A stretch of 64,000 nt of DNA from the NCBI GenBank assembly GCA_029565915.1, contig JAKQNG010000296.1:1-64000 (forward strand), read 5' to 3'. The position numbers and the translations under genes are program-made. Shown in pieces: positions 8,317-16,036 of this stretch. Under the pieces are notes generated by a model that made no database searches, was not told the origin of the DNA, and saw only the letters and a list, made by a program, of their open reading frames with translations. Within the stretch, counting starts at the first letter, position 1, and each line of letters begins with the position of its first letter. The stretch comes from Deltaproteobacteria bacterium. GTDB taxonomy: Bacteria > Myxococcota_A > Polyangia > JAAYKL01.

Positions 8317-8355
8317 TGAAACATACTGTAACACAATTTGAAACGGTTTGTTCCA
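8317..8355. promoter_or_regulatory. Putative tandem activator-binding palindromes
   Basis: TGAAAC-ATACT-GTAACA (8317-8333) and TGAAAC-GGTTT-GTTCCA (8339-8355), 22 bp apart; overlaps TGTTT-N5-AAACA (8309-8323). Confidence 0.45.
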
Positions 8356-8383
8356 ATCGATTCTGCTGCATCTTCCTGCGTGC

Positions 8384-8399
8384 GGGCATGGTATTTGCT
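8384..8399 (+). promoter_or_regulatory. Putative sigma54 promoter upstream of the VKOR-DsbA gene
   Basis: GGGCATG-GTAT-TTGCT with exact GG-N10-GC spacing. Confidence 0.5.
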
Positions 8400-8416
8400 T
8401 TTTCGAAAAGTCAGCC

Positions 8417-9610
8417 ATGAATGATATCCACATGAATTCCATATCCGTCCCTGTGCCGCGCCGCCGGATCGCCATCATGATTCTGCTGTGCGTCGCGGGC
8501 CTTGTCGTGTCCGGCGAGCTGCTCCTTGTCCACTACCGCACCCACACGGATCCCGCATTCCATTCCCTGTGCGCGGTCAACGACGCGGTGAACTGCGAAA
8601 CCGTCGCCCTGTCTCCCTGGTCCGTCGCCCTGGGCATTCCCGTGTGCATCTGGGGCCTCATCGGATACAGCACGCTGCTGGCGCTGCTCCTGTGGAGCAT
8701 CCGTCAGCCGGAGGAACGGTCGATGCCCGCCGCAACGCTGGCCGTTACACTGGCCTTTCTGGCCGTGTCCGCCGCCCTCGCGTGGATATCGTTCACCATC
8801 ATCGATTCCCTGTGCCTGCTGTGCATGACCACCTACGCCGTCAACCTGGCCATGACCGGCATTTCCGTCTCCCGGGTGGCGCTCAGGGACGACGGACTGT
8901 GGACGCTGGTGCGGCGCGATCTGGGCGTTGTGCGCAGCGGGCCGCTGTTCTGGACGATCCTGGCGGTGACGGCCGTTGCCGCGCTGGTGACCGTGCGCGT
9001 GTCCCTGCCCACCTGGTGGGATTCATCCGGGGATCAGGCCACCGGGCAGGCGGACGCCGTGCGCGAAGGAGAAACCGCCCATTTCGTCGGCGCGGCGGAT
9101 GCGCTGCTCACGATTGTCGAATACAGCGACTACCAGTGCCCGTTCTGCCGGATCGCCCACCGCCGGGTGCGCAGGCTGCTGGAGTCCCATGGGGATCGGG
9201 TGAAGCTGATCCACCGCCAGTTTCCCCTGGACGACGCCTGCAATCCTCTGGTGAAGCGGCGCTTCCATCCCTTTGCGTGCCATTTCGCCCTGGCCGCGGA
9301 GTGCGCCGGGGAACAGGGCCGCTTCTGGCAGATGAACGACGCCCTGTTTGGTGCCCACGACACGCACAAATCCGAAGACATCGACGTCTTTGCCATGGCC
9401 GCGGACATCGGCGTGGACGTGGAACGGTTCCGCACCTGCATGCAGGATCCGGCCACCCGGGCCCGGTTGCGGGAAGATATCGACAAGGGCCTCGCCCTGG
9501 GCCTGACCGGAACGCCGACATTTGTGGTGGACGATAAACCGCTGCGCAAAGCCCTGTCTGCGGAGCTCATCGAATCGCTGCTTTCTGAACGAAGCCGAAA
9601 AGCGCCCTGA
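8417..9610 (+). CDS. Vitamin K epoxide reductase domain-DsbA-like thioredoxin fusion protein
   Basis: VKOR-like membrane domain (CAVNDAVNCE...DSLCLLCMTTY) and DsbA-like domain (YSDYQCPFCRIAH...GLTGTPTFVV). Confidence 0.88.
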   Translation: MNDIHMNSISVPVPRRRIAIMILLCVAGLVVSGELLLVHYRTHTDPAFHSLCAVNDAVNCETVALSPWSVALGIPVCIWGLIGYSTLLALLLWSIRQPEERSMPAATLAVTLAFLAVSAALAWISFTIIDSLCLLCMTTYAVNLAMTGISVSRVALRDDGLWTLVRRDLGVVRSGPLFWTILAVTAVAALVTVRVSLPTWWDSSGDQATGQADAVREGETAHFVGAADALLTIVEYSDYQCPFCRIAHRRVRRLLESHGDRVKLIHRQFPLDDACNPLVKRRFHPFACHFALAAECAGEQGRFWQMNDALFGAHDTHKSEDIDVFAMAADIGVDVERFRTCMQDPATRARLREDIDKGLALGLTGTPTFVVDDKPLRKALSAELIESLLSERSRKAP

Positions 9611-9636: not shown

Positions 9637-9975
9637 CTACTGATTTCTGAGTGCGTCGAGTTGCATTCTGAGCAGCGGGAGGCTCTCAACGACAATCTGC
9701 CAGATGATTTCTATATCGATACCGGAATAGTCATGGACAATCCGATTGCGCATACCAGCCATCTGATGCCAGGGAAGAGATGCATGCCGGCTGATAAAAT
9801 CCGATGGCATCTGACGGGCCGCCTCTCCGATAATTTCGATATTCCGGACCACCGCGTCGACGGTCCTGTCATCCGCCAGGAACTGCTCCCGGGTCATCCC
9901 CTCGCAGTAGCGACCAATCCGTTCCATCGCGATGTTCATGTCGTCGATGAGAATATGCGGATCCCGCTCAGACAT
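9637..9975 (-). CDS. hepT: HepT-like (DUF86) toxin
   Basis: RNRIVHDY matches the RX4HXY HEPN motif; adjacent to a MntA-like NTase; internal ATG at 9975. Confidence 0.85.
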   Translation of the reverse strand: MSERDPHILIDDMNIAMERIGRYCEGMTREQFLADDRTVDAVVRNIEIIGEAARQMPSDFISRHASLPWHQMAGMRNRIVHDYSGIDIEIIWQIVVESLPLLRMQLDALRNQ

Positions 9976-10267
9976 CCTGCCGCTCCAGTTCAATCTGCCT
10001 GAGCAGACGGCCGCGAAGGGCCCGGGTTGAAACCAGATCGACCGGATGTCCGAGCAAGGCCTCGAGTTCATCACCCAGTTCCACCATGCGAAGACCGATT
10101 TCGGGTTTCACATCAACGAGTATGTCAATGTCGCTGTGTTCCCCTGCCTCGCCGCGAACGACGGAACCGAACAGCCACATGGCGCGCAGCGGAAACTGTT
10201 TCTGCAGTCGCGGTTTTTCACTGCGGAGTACTCTCAGCACATCTTCTGTGTTCATGGAAACCGGCAT
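9968..10267 (-). CDS. mntA: MntA-like minimal nucleotidyltransferase antitoxin
   Basis: GSVVRGEAGEHSDIDILVD matches GSX10DXD; overlaps hepT by 8 bp. Confidence 0.85.
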   Translation of the reverse strand: MPVSMNTEDVLRVLRSEKPRLQKQFPLRAMWLFGSVVRGEAGEHSDIDILVDVKPEIGLRMVELGDELEALLGHPVDLVSTRALRGRLLRQIELERQDV

Positions 10268-10438: not shown

Positions 10439-11731
10439 TCAGGCGTGGTCGAGTTCGGCGGTGGCCGCAATGGCGGCAATGGTGCCGTCCGCCACGGCGG
10501 TGGTGATCTGGCGGTACTTCTTGTGCACGATGTCGCCGGCGGCAAATACGTGGGGAATACCGGTGTGCATCGATTCGTCCACGACGAGATATCCCCATTC
10601 ATCCGTGGTCAGTTCATCGCCGAACCGATCGAGGTTGGGCTTCATGCCCACAAAGACAAATACGCCATCGCAGGCAATGTCGTGCCGCTCCTGCGTCTTC
10701 AGGTTTTCCACGCGCACGGCGTTTACGGTTTCCGCGGATGCGAGGAAGGCCCGGGGTTCGTGGGACCAGAGCACCTGTATGCCGGGATGGTCGAGGACCT
10801 TCTGCGCGGAGACGGCATTGGCCTGAAACCGGTCGAACTGGTGGACCATGGTGATGCGCGTGGCGAACCGGGCGATGAACAGGGCTTCCTCCACGGCGGA
10901 GTTGCCGCCGCCGATGACCACCGCGTGCTTTCCTTCAAAATACTTGGCGTCGCAGGTGGCGCAGTACGACACGCCCTTTCCCCGGAACTCCCGCTCCCCC
11001 GGGATGTTGAGCAGCCGCGGGGAGGTGCCCGTGGCCAGGATGATTTTTTCTGCGAGGATGGTTTCAAGGCCGTCCACGACGATTTCCCGTCGGTGGAGGT
11101 CGACGCGGGTGACATCGACGGCGGAGCGGAACTGCGCGCCGGCGGCCTTTGCCTGTTCGGCCATGTAGTGGGCCAGCAGGTACCCCGGCTGGGGCGTCAC
11201 GAACCCGGGGTAGTTGGACACCTGGTGGGTGATGCTGACATTGCCGCCGGGCAGGGCGGTGTCGATGACCAGGGTATCGCGCTTCGCCTGGGCCGCATAG
11301 ATCGCCGCGGCCAGCCCCGCCGGTCCACCGCCGATGATGGCCACATCCACCCGGGTGTCCGTCGAAGGTGCAGCGGCAGCCAGCTCCGCCGCCCGCTGGT
11401 CGGGCAGCAGCGCGTGGAGGTTGCGGGTGAGGTCGGCCCGCCGGATGCCCCCCGTCAGCGTGTCACCGGTCCGTTCGCCGTTGCGGAAAAAAATAACGGT
11501 GGGTGAGCCGGTAATGCCAAGGGAAGTGGCCAGCTCCCGGTTTTCCTGCCGGAAAATTTTAATAAAGGTCACGTCGTTGCCGTAGATGCGGGCCAGGGAT
11601 TCGTACTTGGCGGCCAGGGCTTCGCAGGGCGGGCATTCGGTGGAATAAAAATCCACCACAACGGGGCGCCCGGATTCCAGCACTTCCTTCTGCCAGTCGG
11701 CCTGACCGATGGTCAAAATGATATCTGACAT
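10439..11731 (-). CDS. Thioredoxin-thioredoxin reductase fusion protein
   Basis: N-terminal Trx domain with CPPC, then FAD GGGPAGLAAAIYAAQ, CATCDAKYFEGK, VIGGGNSAVEEAL, GDIVHKKYRQ. Confidence 0.92.
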   Translation of the reverse strand: MSDIILTIGQADWQKEVLESGRPVVVDFYSTECPPCEALAAKYESLARIYGNDVTFIKIFRQENRELATSLGITGSPTVIFFRNGERTGDTLTGGIRRADLTRNLHALLPDQRAAELAAAAPSTDTRVDVAIIGGGPAGLAAAIYAAQAKRDTLVIDTALPGGNVSITHQVSNYPGFVTPQPGYLLAHYMAEQAKAAGAQFRSAVDVTRVDLHRREIVVDGLETILAEKIILATGTSPRLLNIPGEREFRGKGVSYCATCDAKYFEGKHAVVIGGGNSAVEEALFIARFATRITMVHQFDRFQANAVSAQKVLDHPGIQVLWSHEPRAFLASAETVNAVRVENLKTQERHDIACDGVFVFVGMKPNLDRFGDELTTDEWGYLVVDESMHTGIPHVFAAGDIVHKKYRQITTAVADGTIAAIAATAELDHA

Positions 11732-11734
11732 GGC

Positions 11735-13066
11735 TCAATCCTCTTCCTTCTTGCCGCGCACGCGGCCGTCTTCTTCAAAGTAAACGGGAAACCCGGCTGC
11801 GGCGATGTCCGCCACGGGCCGGCAGTCCGGAGAATGCAGGTGGCCGTGGGTGTTTCTGGCCACCGCTCCGCAGCCGCCGCCGCAGACGAGCGCCGCGGCA
11901 CAGCTGCGACAGGACTCGATGGCGAGGACGTCCCGGTCCTGCCAGAGGGCGATGGCCGCTTCGTCCCGCTGCACCACCGGGAAAAATGTGCCCAGCTCTT
12001 CGCCGGGCTTTCCCACCGTGGCTGTGCAGGAGAAGATGCGGCCCAGGTGGTCGAAGGCCCATTCGGTTTTGCAGCCCGGGCAGCTGTCGAAGACGGGGTC
12101 CGGCAGCTCACCGGTCCGGGCCAGCGTGCGGACGAAATGAAACGACGGCGCGTGGAACGCCATCACGTGGGGGTGCGCCGCGATGATGTCGGCCAACTCC
12201 CTGGCCAGCTCCAGCCTCGACAGGATGGCCGTTGCGCGGTGCTGGCAGGCGTGGAGCTCGTAGTTGCGCCCCAGCTGGGTTTTGAACAGGGGGTCCGCGG
12301 TCCATCCCCGGTCAATGGCGAACCGCGCCAGGTCGGGCAGGTTGTCGAGGTTGTCCCGGTCCACCACCATCCGCAGGTTGACGGGAATCCTTGCCGCGAG
12401 CAGCTGGTCCACGCCGCGGACGATCTTTTCAAAGGTGGGCCCGCCGTCCTTGCGCGGCCGCCGTCGGTTGTGGAGGTCCTCGGTGCCGTCCAGGGTAACC
12501 TGCACCTCCCGGATGAAACTGTCTTGCAGCACGTCCAGGTATTCTTCGACAAAGTAGCCGTTGGTCACCACCGCGGTGGTGGTGTGCCGGCGGGTCGCGC
12601 CCGCAAGGAAAAAGGTCACCGCATCCCTTGCGGATGCGCCGGGCAGCAGGGGCTCTCCGCCAAAAAGGGTGAAGTACCGGCGGCGTCCCGCAAAGGCGTG
12701 TTCCACGTAGTCGAACAGGGCGTCGATGACCGGCCGCTGATCACCACCGCCGCCCTGCAGGTAGTCCGCCTGGTAGCAGTAGTCGCAGTCGAAGTTGCAC
12801 GCGTAGCCGGGCACGTAGAAGAGCTGCACCTCGTCGGTGTCGCGGGCATCAAGGAATTCGAGATATCGGCGGCGGAACTGGGCTTCCTCCTCCGGTCCGA
12901 AGGACGGGTCGTCGCTGGACGCGCGCCACGTTTCCATCTCCGCGGCGCTGAGCAGGTGGGCGGTTCCCGTGAGGGCATTGGCAATCAGGCAGGACCCGTC
13001 GTTGCCCACGGGCGCCACCATGTCGTACTTCGACCGGCGCAGCGGCATTTCTGCATCCTTTCGCAA
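11735..13066 (-). CDS. Radical SAM/SPASM domain protein (peptide-modifying type)
   Basis: CNFDCDYCYQ (CxxxCxxC), LFGGEPLL, C-terminal SPASM-like Cys pattern (CPGCKTEW...CRSCAAALVCGGGCG...C); alternative start at 13048. Confidence 0.9.
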   Translation of the reverse strand: MRKDAEMPLRRSKYDMVAPVGNDGSCLIANALTGTAHLLSAAEMETWRASSDDPSFGPEEEAQFRRRYLEFLDARDTDEVQLFYVPGYACNFDCDYCYQADYLQGGGGDQRPVIDALFDYVEHAFAGRRRYFTLFGGEPLLPGASARDAVTFFLAGATRRHTTTAVVTNGYFVEEYLDVLQDSFIREVQVTLDGTEDLHNRRRPRKDGGPTFEKIVRGVDQLLAARIPVNLRMVVDRDNLDNLPDLARFAIDRGWTADPLFKTQLGRNYELHACQHRATAILSRLELARELADIIAAHPHVMAFHAPSFHFVRTLARTGELPDPVFDSCPGCKTEWAFDHLGRIFSCTATVGKPGEELGTFFPVVQRDEAAIALWQDRDVLAIESCRSCAAALVCGGGCGAVARNTHGHLHSPDCRPVADIAAAGFPVYFEEDGRVRGKKEED

Positions 13067-13105: not shown

Positions 13106-13255
13106 TCAGTCGTGGCAGCCGGCGACGATTTTTGAATTCTTGGCGCAGCACTGGGCGCGGGAACCGGCCTTGTCCGCTTTGCCCGACGGGGTCTTGTCGC
13201 GTTCGCGCTGGTTGCGGGCCGTTTTGTCGGTTGGTTCCTTCGTGAGTTTTTTCAT
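13106..13255 (-). CDS. 49-aa peptide MKKLTKEPTDKTARNQRERDKTPSGKADKAGSRAQCCAKNSKIVAGCHD; candidate substrate of the adjacent radical SAM enzyme
   Basis: Hand-translated; absent from the ORF track; ATG overlaps the TGA of the methyltransferase gene (ATGA); AGGAG 8 nt upstream; C-terminal CC-X9-C. Confidence 0.75.
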   Translation of the reverse strand: MKKLTKEPTDKTARNQRERDKTPSGKADKAGSRAQCCAKNSKIVAGCHD

Positions 13256-13935
13256 CGGTTGTTCTCCTGTGGGTCAGAGGGTCGGCAGCCGCAGCCACAG
13301 CCGGGCCGCACGCCGCAGACGGTAAAACTGGACACTTCAATTTTTCCCTTCGGGTAGGGGTCGCTTTCTTCGAGGATGCGGATGTCGGCAAACCCGGCGA
13401 GTTCCAGGGTGGCGAGGTATTCGTTGCGGGTCACTGCCCCGGCCCAGCATTCGGCCACGGCCGCCGGGTCGTTGCGGTACTCCTGCGGCACGGGCGCGGA
13501 CGAATAAATGTCGCTCACCGCAAATCGGCCACCGGGTTTCAGGATGCGTCGGATTTCGCGCCACACGGCGGGTTTGTCCGTGGCGTGGTTGATGGTGCAG
13601 TTGGAAATCACGAGATCGGCCACACCGTCGGGGAGGGGCAGTTTTTCGATGGAGGAAGCGATGAACTCCACGTTGGATGCGCCCGTTTTCTGTGCGGTGC
13701 GGCGGGCGACCGCGAGCATGCCGTCCGCCGTGTCGATGCCGAAGACCTTTCCGGTGGGGCCCACGGCTTGCGCCATGCGCAGCACGTCGGTGCCCCGGCC
13801 GCTGCCGATGTCCACGCAGGTTTCGCCCTCCTGCGCCTTTGCGAAATTCAGCGCACCGCCGCAGGAGAGGCAGCAGGATGACGCGGCCAGGCCGCTGTAG
13901 CGCTCGTCAATTTTCTGTCGGATGGATTCGTTCAT
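13252..13935 (-). CDS. ArsM-like SAM-dependent methyltransferase
   Basis: DIGSGRGTD SAM site; SNCTINHATDKPAVWREIRRILKPGGRFAVSDIYSS and AECWAGAV resemble arsenite methyltransferases; start at 13935. Confidence 0.82.
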   Translation of the reverse strand: MNESIRQKIDERYSGLAASSCCLSCGGALNFAKAQEGETCVDIGSGRGTDVLRMAQAVGPTGKVFGIDTADGMLAVARRTAQKTGASNVEFIASSIEKLPLPDGVADLVISNCTINHATDKPAVWREIRRILKPGGRFAVSDIYSSAPVPQEYRNDPAAVAECWAGAVTRNEYLATLELAGFADIRILEESDPYPKGKIEVSSFTVCGVRPGCGCGCRPSDPQENNR

Positions 13936-14010: not shown

Positions 14011-14958
14011 TTATTCGATAATGATGGATTCGAAACAGGCGATGTTGGTTTCGATGCGGAAATTGGACTGGCTGGTATGGCGCTCCGCGTGGAACACGTC
14101 CATGGGGTAGGAATTGCCCGGTTCGATGCCCAGCTCGCCGGCCTTGGCGTCGAAGTCGATGGTTCCCTCGTAGGGCCAGTGGAGACCGCCCAGATCGAGG
14201 GCGATGCGGTTGTTGACGAAAATCCACAGGTCGTCGTCGCCCCGGAAGGTGAACACCTGGCCTTCTTCGTACTGGAACTCCAGATGGATTTCGGTGGTGA
14301 ACAGGAAGTTGCGCAGCTCGCCGTCGTCGTCCACCTGGCCGGACTCGGCGCCGAACCCTTCGCTGTTGCCGATGGGGAAGAAGGTGCTGTCGTCATAGAC
14401 AAAGGAACCGCTGCCGCTGTCTTCGAGGGTGAGCGTATCCTCGATGCGGACGTTCACGCCGTCCACGTCCGTGTACCACTGGGCAAAGCTGGAAGCGCTG
14501 TCCCACATGGGGATACTGCCCCAGGCAGGGCCCGTGGGGGTGCTGGTGGCGTTTTCGAGAAAACCGCCGTTGGGACAGGTTTCGCCGCAGGCGGGGTCCG
14601 TGGTCTGGTACTCTCCCTGCAACTGGTTGAATTCGGGCTTGCGGCTCGCGCCGAGGACCGGTCGCACCATGCCCTGGCATGGGCCCCAGCCGAGGTCCGC
14701 CCGCTCGAAGTCCACGTGGTCCGAGGTGAAGTCCCGGTAGACCACCTGCAGGGTGCTCTCGCAGTCGCCGTCCGAATCGCTGTCCGAGTCCGAATCGCTG
14801 TCCGAGTCGGAGTCGGAATCCGAATCGGAGTCGCTGTCCGCATCCCCGGGGCCGTCGTCGCCCGGCCGCTCGGTGCCGCCGGTTTCGCAGGACGTGCCGG
14901 CCAGGCAGAGGAGTGCGCACGCAAGCGCGATCAGATGAAATGAGTGGTTGGTTGTCAT
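14011..14958 (-). CDS. Fibro-slime domain lipoprotein with (Asp-Ser)n linker
   Basis: Lipobox LAGTSCE, D-A-(DS)n-D-G-D linker, [25 protein letters not shown] fibro-slime signature; start at 14958. Confidence 0.85.
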   Translation of the reverse strand: MTTNHSFHLIALACALLCLAGTSCETGGTERPGDDGPGDADSDSDSDSDSDSDSDSDSDSDSDGDCESTLQVVYRDFTSDHVDFERADLGWGPCQGMVRPVLGASRKPEFNQLQGEYQTTDPACGETCPNGGFLENATSTPTGPAWGSIPMWDSASSFAQWYTDVDGVNVRIEDTLTLEDSGSGSFVYDDSTFFPIGNSEGFGAESGQVDDDGELRNFLFTTEIHLEFQYEEGQVFTFRGDDDLWIFVNNRIALDLGGLHWPYEGTIDFDAKAGELGIEPGNSYPMDVFHAERHTSQSNFRIETNIACFESIIIE

Positions 14959-14977
14959 GAGAACTCCTGATGGCCGG

Positions 14978-15865
14978 TTATTCCACCGGCGGGACAAAGC
15001 ATTCGATGGTGGTCTCGATGCGGAAGTTGGATTCGAGGGTGTGGCGCTCCGCGTGGAACACGTCAAAATCGTAGGTGTTGCCGGGCGTGATGCCCAGGGT
15101 GTTGGCCATGTCGTCAAAGTCGATGATGCCTTCCTTCGGTTCGTGGGTGCCGCCGAGGTCGAGGGCCAGCACGCCGTTCACGAAGATCCACAGGTCGTCG
15201 TCGCCTCTGAAGGTGAAGGTTTCGCCACCCACATATTCGAAGGCGGAGTGGATTTCGGTGGTGAACAGGAAATTGCGCTGTTCGTCATCATTGTCGAGCT
15301 GGCCGTCCTCTGCGCCGAAGCCTTCGTCGAGACCCAGCGGAAAGAAGCTGCTGTCGGAAAAGACATACAGGCCGTTGTCCTGTTCTTCGAGGATGATGCC
15401 CTTTTCGATGGCGATGTTGGTGCCGTCCACATCCCGGTACCAGTCGTTGAAATTGTCCGGTGTGGGGTCGCCCAAGTCAGCGGGCCAGTCGTTAATGTCG
15501 TAGCAGGTGTCGTTGGGGTGGACCCAGCAGGCGTCGTCATCGTCGTAGACCGGATTCTTGTCGCTGTCGAGCTGGGGTCCGAGCAGTCCGCGGATGACCG
15601 CGTTTCCGGGGTTCTCGATTTCGAAGTCGCTGTGACTCGCCTTGAAATCCCGGAAGGTGACGGGGAGGATGCCGCAGTCTGAGTTGATCAGTTCCGGATC
15701 GTCCACGATGCCGTTGCCGTCCGGGTCAATGTCGCCGTCGCTGTCAGAATCGCTGTCCGCATCGCTGTCGCCGTCGCCGCCGGGGGGTGGATTGGCATTG
15801 TCCGTATTTGAACAGGCCATCAGCAGGGCGCAGATGAAAAACGCGAAGAATGGTTTTTGTGTCAT
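14978..15865 (-). CDS. Fibro-slime domain lipoprotein (tandem paralogue)
   Basis: Lipobox [20 protein letters not shown] linker, [25 protein letters not shown]; start at 15865. Confidence 0.85.
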
Positions 15866-16036
15866 GGCATGTCTCCTTGGGGTAATCAATCGGTACAAAG
15901 TTAATCCATTTTTATTATATCTGCATTGAATTCCAGCCGGGGATTCTGTTCGAAAAGATGCGCGAAATGAGCAGAAATGGCAACCGGGGACGGGTTTCGT
16001 TCGAGTTTCACAATGACCGCATCCGGGCGGACTGGG

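Follow-up and report, generated by a model that had tools for sequence, protein, structure and literature searches.

A conserved cysteine-tailed peptide gene beside a radical SAM/SPASM protein and an ArsM-like methyltransferase: probable precursor of an undescribed RiPP family

Is a reading frame of 49 codons, lodged between a methyltransferase gene and a radical SAM gene, a gene at all, and if so, what is its product for? The question is raised by a stretch of 64,000 nucleotides from a Deltaproteobacteria bacterium (here called the window), in which a sequence-only reading had proposed an unannotated small peptide gene with a ribosome-binding site, a start overlapping the gene upstream, and a Cys-free leader followed by a segment holding all the cysteines. 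Translation of the minus strand gives exactly the residues that it described. An AGGAG precedes the ATG by 8 nt, the start codon shares the letters ATGA with the TGA that ends the upstream methyltransferase gene, and all three cysteines are sited in the last 14 residues. The Cys-free leader stands for the window copy, but not in general: among 95 distinct full peptides 74 have three cysteines, 21 have five, and none has four. In those 21 the extra pair lies in the linker as CC or CxC (e.g., L023, L035, and L102). The features of the locus are collected in Table 1.

Table 1. Position of the peptide gene, its companion genes (the “cassette”), and adjoining features within the window
Feature	Positions	Strand	Remarks
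ArsM-like SAM methyltransferase (MT), short	13252..13935	-	ATG at 13935; Cys-rich C-terminal tail
Precursor peptide gene, 49 aa	13106..13255	-	Leader MKKL..., then a variable basic linker, then core AQCCAKNSKIVAGCHD
Conserved 16-residue core AQCCAKxSxxxxGCHD	13109..13156	-	Codons only, stop excluded
Radical SAM/SPASM protein (rSAM)	11735..13048	-	Likely ATG at 13048, preceded by AAAGGA; cluster motif CNFDCDYC; SPASM pattern of 7 Cys and a further Cys; beta3-alpha region at the N-terminus
Thioredoxin (CPPC)-thioredoxin reductase (CATC) fusion (Trx-TrxR)	10439..11731	-	Begins 3 nt beyond the rSAM stop
HepT/MntA-type (type VII) toxin-antitoxin pair	9637-10267	-	Just beyond the cassette
VKOR-like domain fused to a thioredoxin-like domain	8348-9610	+	Convergent with the toxin-antitoxin pair and the cassette
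Two tandem secreted-looking proteins	14011-15898	-	Just upstream of the cassette; Asp-Ser repeats, weak PA14 match

The peptide ORF is a real gene. Starting from the rSAM alone, a search through genome contigs confirmed 185 relatives; the best 80 of these 185 loci, from Myxococcota, Bacteroidota, Spirochaetota, Ignavibacteria, Elusimicrobia, and Margulisbacteria, were used. Because 75 of the 80, found only through the neighboring rSAM, carry a peptide with the same tail, the frame cannot be put down to chance. Loss of in-frame conservation among relatives with the flanking genes had been set beforehand as the result that would refute the gene, and the outcome was the opposite; the claim of a real, coupled small coding gene therefore holds, translation itself being inferred.

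A comparison of the cysteine segment with the rest of the peptide had also been called for, and the last 16 residues, AQCCAKxSxxxxGCHD followed directly by the stop, are indeed far more conserved than the linker, which is free to vary. Over the 16 residues pN/pS is 0.148 (99 loci). It rises to 0.295 in the six codons that open the leader (97 loci), 0.584 at the five variable places of the core (99 loci), and 0.625 in the linker (536 equal-length pairs); these figures are rough, as pS is near saturation. The 94 loci compared hold 92 distinct DNA versions of the core and 52 distinct core peptides, and at the conserved codons these 92 versions vary only synonymously: alanine uses all four GCN codons, the two glutamine codons stand at 46:46, cysteine is TGC or TGT, and all three stops occur. 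Nine positions (Q, C, C, A, K, C, H, D, and the stop) were preset in the search pattern, which accounts for part of their invariance; outside it the core is still fixed at A1 and G13 (92/92 distinct DNA versions each) and at S8 (91/92). With a peptide so short, set between two genes and without a family match, one could suspect a chance frame or a by-product of overlap in the intergenic stretch, but in-frame conservation across phyla with saturated synonymous change rules this out for all practical purposes. No Pfam or NCBIfam model fits the peptide, save for weak matches to the BTK motif (5 of 23 peptides, best E 0.019) and one to YchJ (E 0.084), and no solved structure matches it at E 1. Selenocysteine in the peptide was rejected, as no TGA variant occurred in 91 loci under a pattern allowing stops at the cysteine places.

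The peptide gene belongs to a cassette in which it is the second gene: MT, peptide, rSAM (after a gap of 57 nt), and Trx-TrxR. This order is almost constant in the best 80 of the 185 rSAM loci, where MT is found in 73, Trx-TrxR in 77, and the peptide wherever MT is. Five of the 80 lack the peptide (L030, L034, L047, L068, and L073). The contig starts at or shortly before the rSAM in L034, L047, and L073, and the genomes of L030, L068, and L047 hold a peptide with adjoining MT at another place; none was found in those of L034 and L073 at E 0.01. Fifteen further stretches, preselected as known carriers, gave peptide and MT in 15/15, rSAM in 14/15 (in opposite orientation in L128), and Trx-TrxR in 13/15 (in L129 the contig ends after it). 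The peptide or cassette is present two or three times in some genomes, as on contigs C80, C70, and C149 of G240 or at L016 and L056 of one MAG.

Co-occurrence points the same way. Across 59 related genomes, the source genome included, rSAM occurs in 7 (at 43-100% identity), the peptide in 8, and both together in 7 (Fisher p 2e-8, uncorrected for kinship, the genomes not being independent); two further genomes have only weak 31% matches, which were counted as other families. A phylum-wide search placed the peptide in at least 14 of 377 genomes at E <= 3.6e-7, again including the source genome, with 18 more at E 0.0015-0.1 taken as noise. In the phylum to which G405 belongs, at least 6 of 395 genomes, G405 among them, also have the peptide. 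MT adjoins the peptide in 13/13 loci from the 377-genome search and in 8/8 from the G405-phylum and L-locus genome searches, and rSAM appears in 11/13 and 5/8 of these short stretches, respectively. The tightest pair in the cassette is MT and peptide, not rSAM and peptide. Neither a mobile nor a viral origin found support: no rSAM match was seen in plasmids at E 1e-40, and of 31 pattern matches in viral contigs none was confirmed.

What kind of enzyme is the rSAM? A domain search finds the radical SAM domain, and the protein meets the criterion for a SPASM radical SAM enzyme, CX3CX2C plus the seven-cysteine SPASM pattern, kept at 97-100% in 94-95 aligned rows. In the numbering of the 443-aa ORF, C90, C94, and C97 are retained in 99-100% of rows, C332 in 97%, and C347, C386, C389, C395, C399, and C415 in 100%. 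All 42 members scanned match RiPP-maturase models. Bit scores, available for the window copy only, are far under every NCBIfam cut-off, the best being TIGR04463 (103 bits; cut-off 525) and CefB, NF038107 (101 bits; cut-off 600).

An AlphaFold model of the rSAM (pLDDT 91.7) has CteB as its top structural match by both Foldseek and a second aligner (Z 25.9, rmsd 3.9, 384 aligned, 17% identity), spanning model residues 6-431. The peptide-modifying enzymes anSME (close behind at Z 25.0, rmsd 4.0, 334 aligned), ChlB, SkfB, and SuiB follow; CteB alone among the top matches covers the N-terminal region. In the full-length model this region is predicted to run beta-beta-beta-alpha-alpha, an order of strands and helices that resembles a leader-binding RRE domain. 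As identity to CteB is only about 15-18%, the chemistry of the rSAM cannot be read from it.

In our view the peptide is probably the precursor of a RiPP family not described before, with the rSAM installing cysteine chemistry on its core; the product and its function are unproven. Two RiPP criteria are met by observation: a short encoded precursor lies beside a modifying enzyme (in the 75 of the best 80 rSAM loci), and leader and core parts are under different constraint. By this proposal the rSAM would recognize the conserved MKSL-type N-terminus of the peptide through its own N-terminal region, would abstract a hydrogen in the 16-residue core and, using its SPASM clusters, might join a core cysteine sulfur to carbon in a thioether-type bond. 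The Trx-TrxR fusion, whose CPPC and CATC cysteines are kept in 87/87 rows having those columns, would hold the thiols of the core (and of MT) reduced, and the ArsM-like MT may then methylate either the product itself or a metalloid bound by the product's thiols. That the rSAM acts on the peptide is inferred; bond type and MT substrate are likewise inferences, the chemistry being drawn from relatives, and no modification has been observed. Because the core is near-fixed, we also infer a housekeeping-like product with an intracellular thiol or metal(loid) role rather than one for export. Against the RiPP reading stand this lack of any seen modification, the absence of a constant protease or dedicated exporter in the cassette loci, the MT-peptide pair being the tightest, and G039, where MT, peptide, and Trx-TrxR were found without rSAM (the contig ends just beyond, so its absence is unproven).

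The nearest known systems help to place the cassette. CteB and ScfB, the SCIFF (ranthipeptide) maturases, share SPASM cysteines with the rSAM and provide its closest solved structure, nearly full length with the N-terminal region included; SCIFF precursors are likewise short cysteine peptides adjoining their maturase. However, the SCIFF criterion of six cysteines in forty-five is not met by peptides with three or five, nor is that of the maturase model TIGR03974 (66.6 bits vs. a cut-off of 425), and the present cassette has MT and Trx-TrxR as extra partners. The rSAM RiPP systems TIGR04463 and CefB are the best-scoring NCBIfam relatives, but their cut-offs lie far above the scores obtained. 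Arsinothricin (arsQML) and arsenosugar pathways employ an ArsM plus a radical SAM protein, a pairing that the cassette repeats. To our knowledge, their enzymes act on arsenicals without a ribosomal peptide, whereas the rSAM here is of the SPASM type and comes with a conserved peptide. We found no prior description of the peptide or cassette in the literature; subscription papers were mostly not covered, and an earlier description is not excluded.

The MT gives reason to weigh a different account, in which As(III) or a similar element is bound by the thiols of the core and passed to the ArsM-like MT, Trx-TrxR recycles the thiols, and the rSAM either produces an organo-metalloid or tunes the peptide. 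A pyramidal As(III) site is well served by three thiols, the number that the core offers. By sequence alignment, the MT cysteines match C72, C174, and C224 of CmArsM, and these equivalents are conserved in 87/87, 88/88, and 89/89 rows having the column. The three residues are integral to arsenite binding in CmArsM (PMC5552862), and the MT thus satisfies the ligand criterion of ArsM. Acr3 adds weak support at best, being present in 7/8 peptide carriers vs. 28/51 noncarriers among the 59 relatives (p 0.13, not significant). Yet the MT, though of the ArsM methyltransferase family, is not an ordinary member: its median length is 215 aa, it scores 203.6-204.8 bits against the ArsM (NF008823) cut-off of 263, it is linked to peptide and rSAM, and 31 cassette MTs form a clade of their own, with 100/99 support, apart from 26 other ArsM-like proteins. 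(The 31 were picked for spread from 89 MTs; of 30 fetched loci, four were cassette MTs and the other 26 entered the tree.) In addition, a canonical ArsM (352.6 bits) is encoded near Acr3 on another contig of the source genome, C34. The gene neighborhood also speaks against this account. Among 123 other neighbor proteins Pfam found thioredoxin 10 times, OsmC 3 times, and rhodanese twice, and no ars family is among the 25 families listed of 153; an ars operon around the cassette, considered as a candidate, was not seen among the top neighbor families. (From a pool of 273 ORFs 148 were drawn and these 123 scanned; the pool left out core genes, long Trx-TrxR, the DUF302, DUF6132-like, IS1595, and DUF1847 clusters, and ORFs <110 aa.) The cassette setting is one of thiol and sulfur more than of an arsenic operon, and we regard the metalloid account as rather unlikely. 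Its meeting point with the RiPP proposal, a product carrying arsenic or a similar element, would be a new RiPP class in which the rSAM shapes a three-thiol peptide, the ArsM-like MT acts on the bound element, and Trx-TrxR is the reductant; this too we hold to be unlikely.

The same neighborhood lends something to another alternative, that the peptide stays unmodified, as a small metal- or redox-binding protein with a C-C-X9-C-H ligand set and that the rSAM has some other substrate. Small thioredoxins and DUF302 and DUF1847 proteins often adjoin the cassette, the CC-X9-C spacing has a neighboring histidine, and the BTK motif of Pfam, weakly matched above, binds zinc. This would leave unexplained the leader, linker, and core layout, the near-absolute invariance of the last residues, and the co-occurrence with a RiPP-type rSAM, and we think it improbable. 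Clustering of neighbors over 91 loci gave DUF302 (25), a small membrane protein, which we take to be DUF6132-like in the absence of a Pfam match (20), an IS1595-type zinc-ribbon ORF (19), DUF1847 (13), and a pyridine nucleotide-disulfide oxidoreductase (8). The IS1595-type ORF, mostly 140-160 aa, lies on the opposite strand just before the cassette (e.g., L022:2562-2999) and could have a regulatory function instead of being what is left of a transposase. In the window, the two components of the HepT/MntA-type pair score 54.8 and 52.7 bits, slightly under the curated cut-offs of 60.

A peptide gene of roughly 30-53 codons, easily dropped by length cut-offs, is among the most strongly conserved parts of a cassette found in several phyla. 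Antibiotic-type RiPPs seldom have cores so nearly identical from phylum to phylum, and on this ground our analysis suggests a housekeeping role for the product, possibly as a cofactor or as a thiol or metal carrier, PQQ and mycofactocin being parallels. An orphan rSAM family thereby gains a likely substrate, and its chemistry becomes directly testable.
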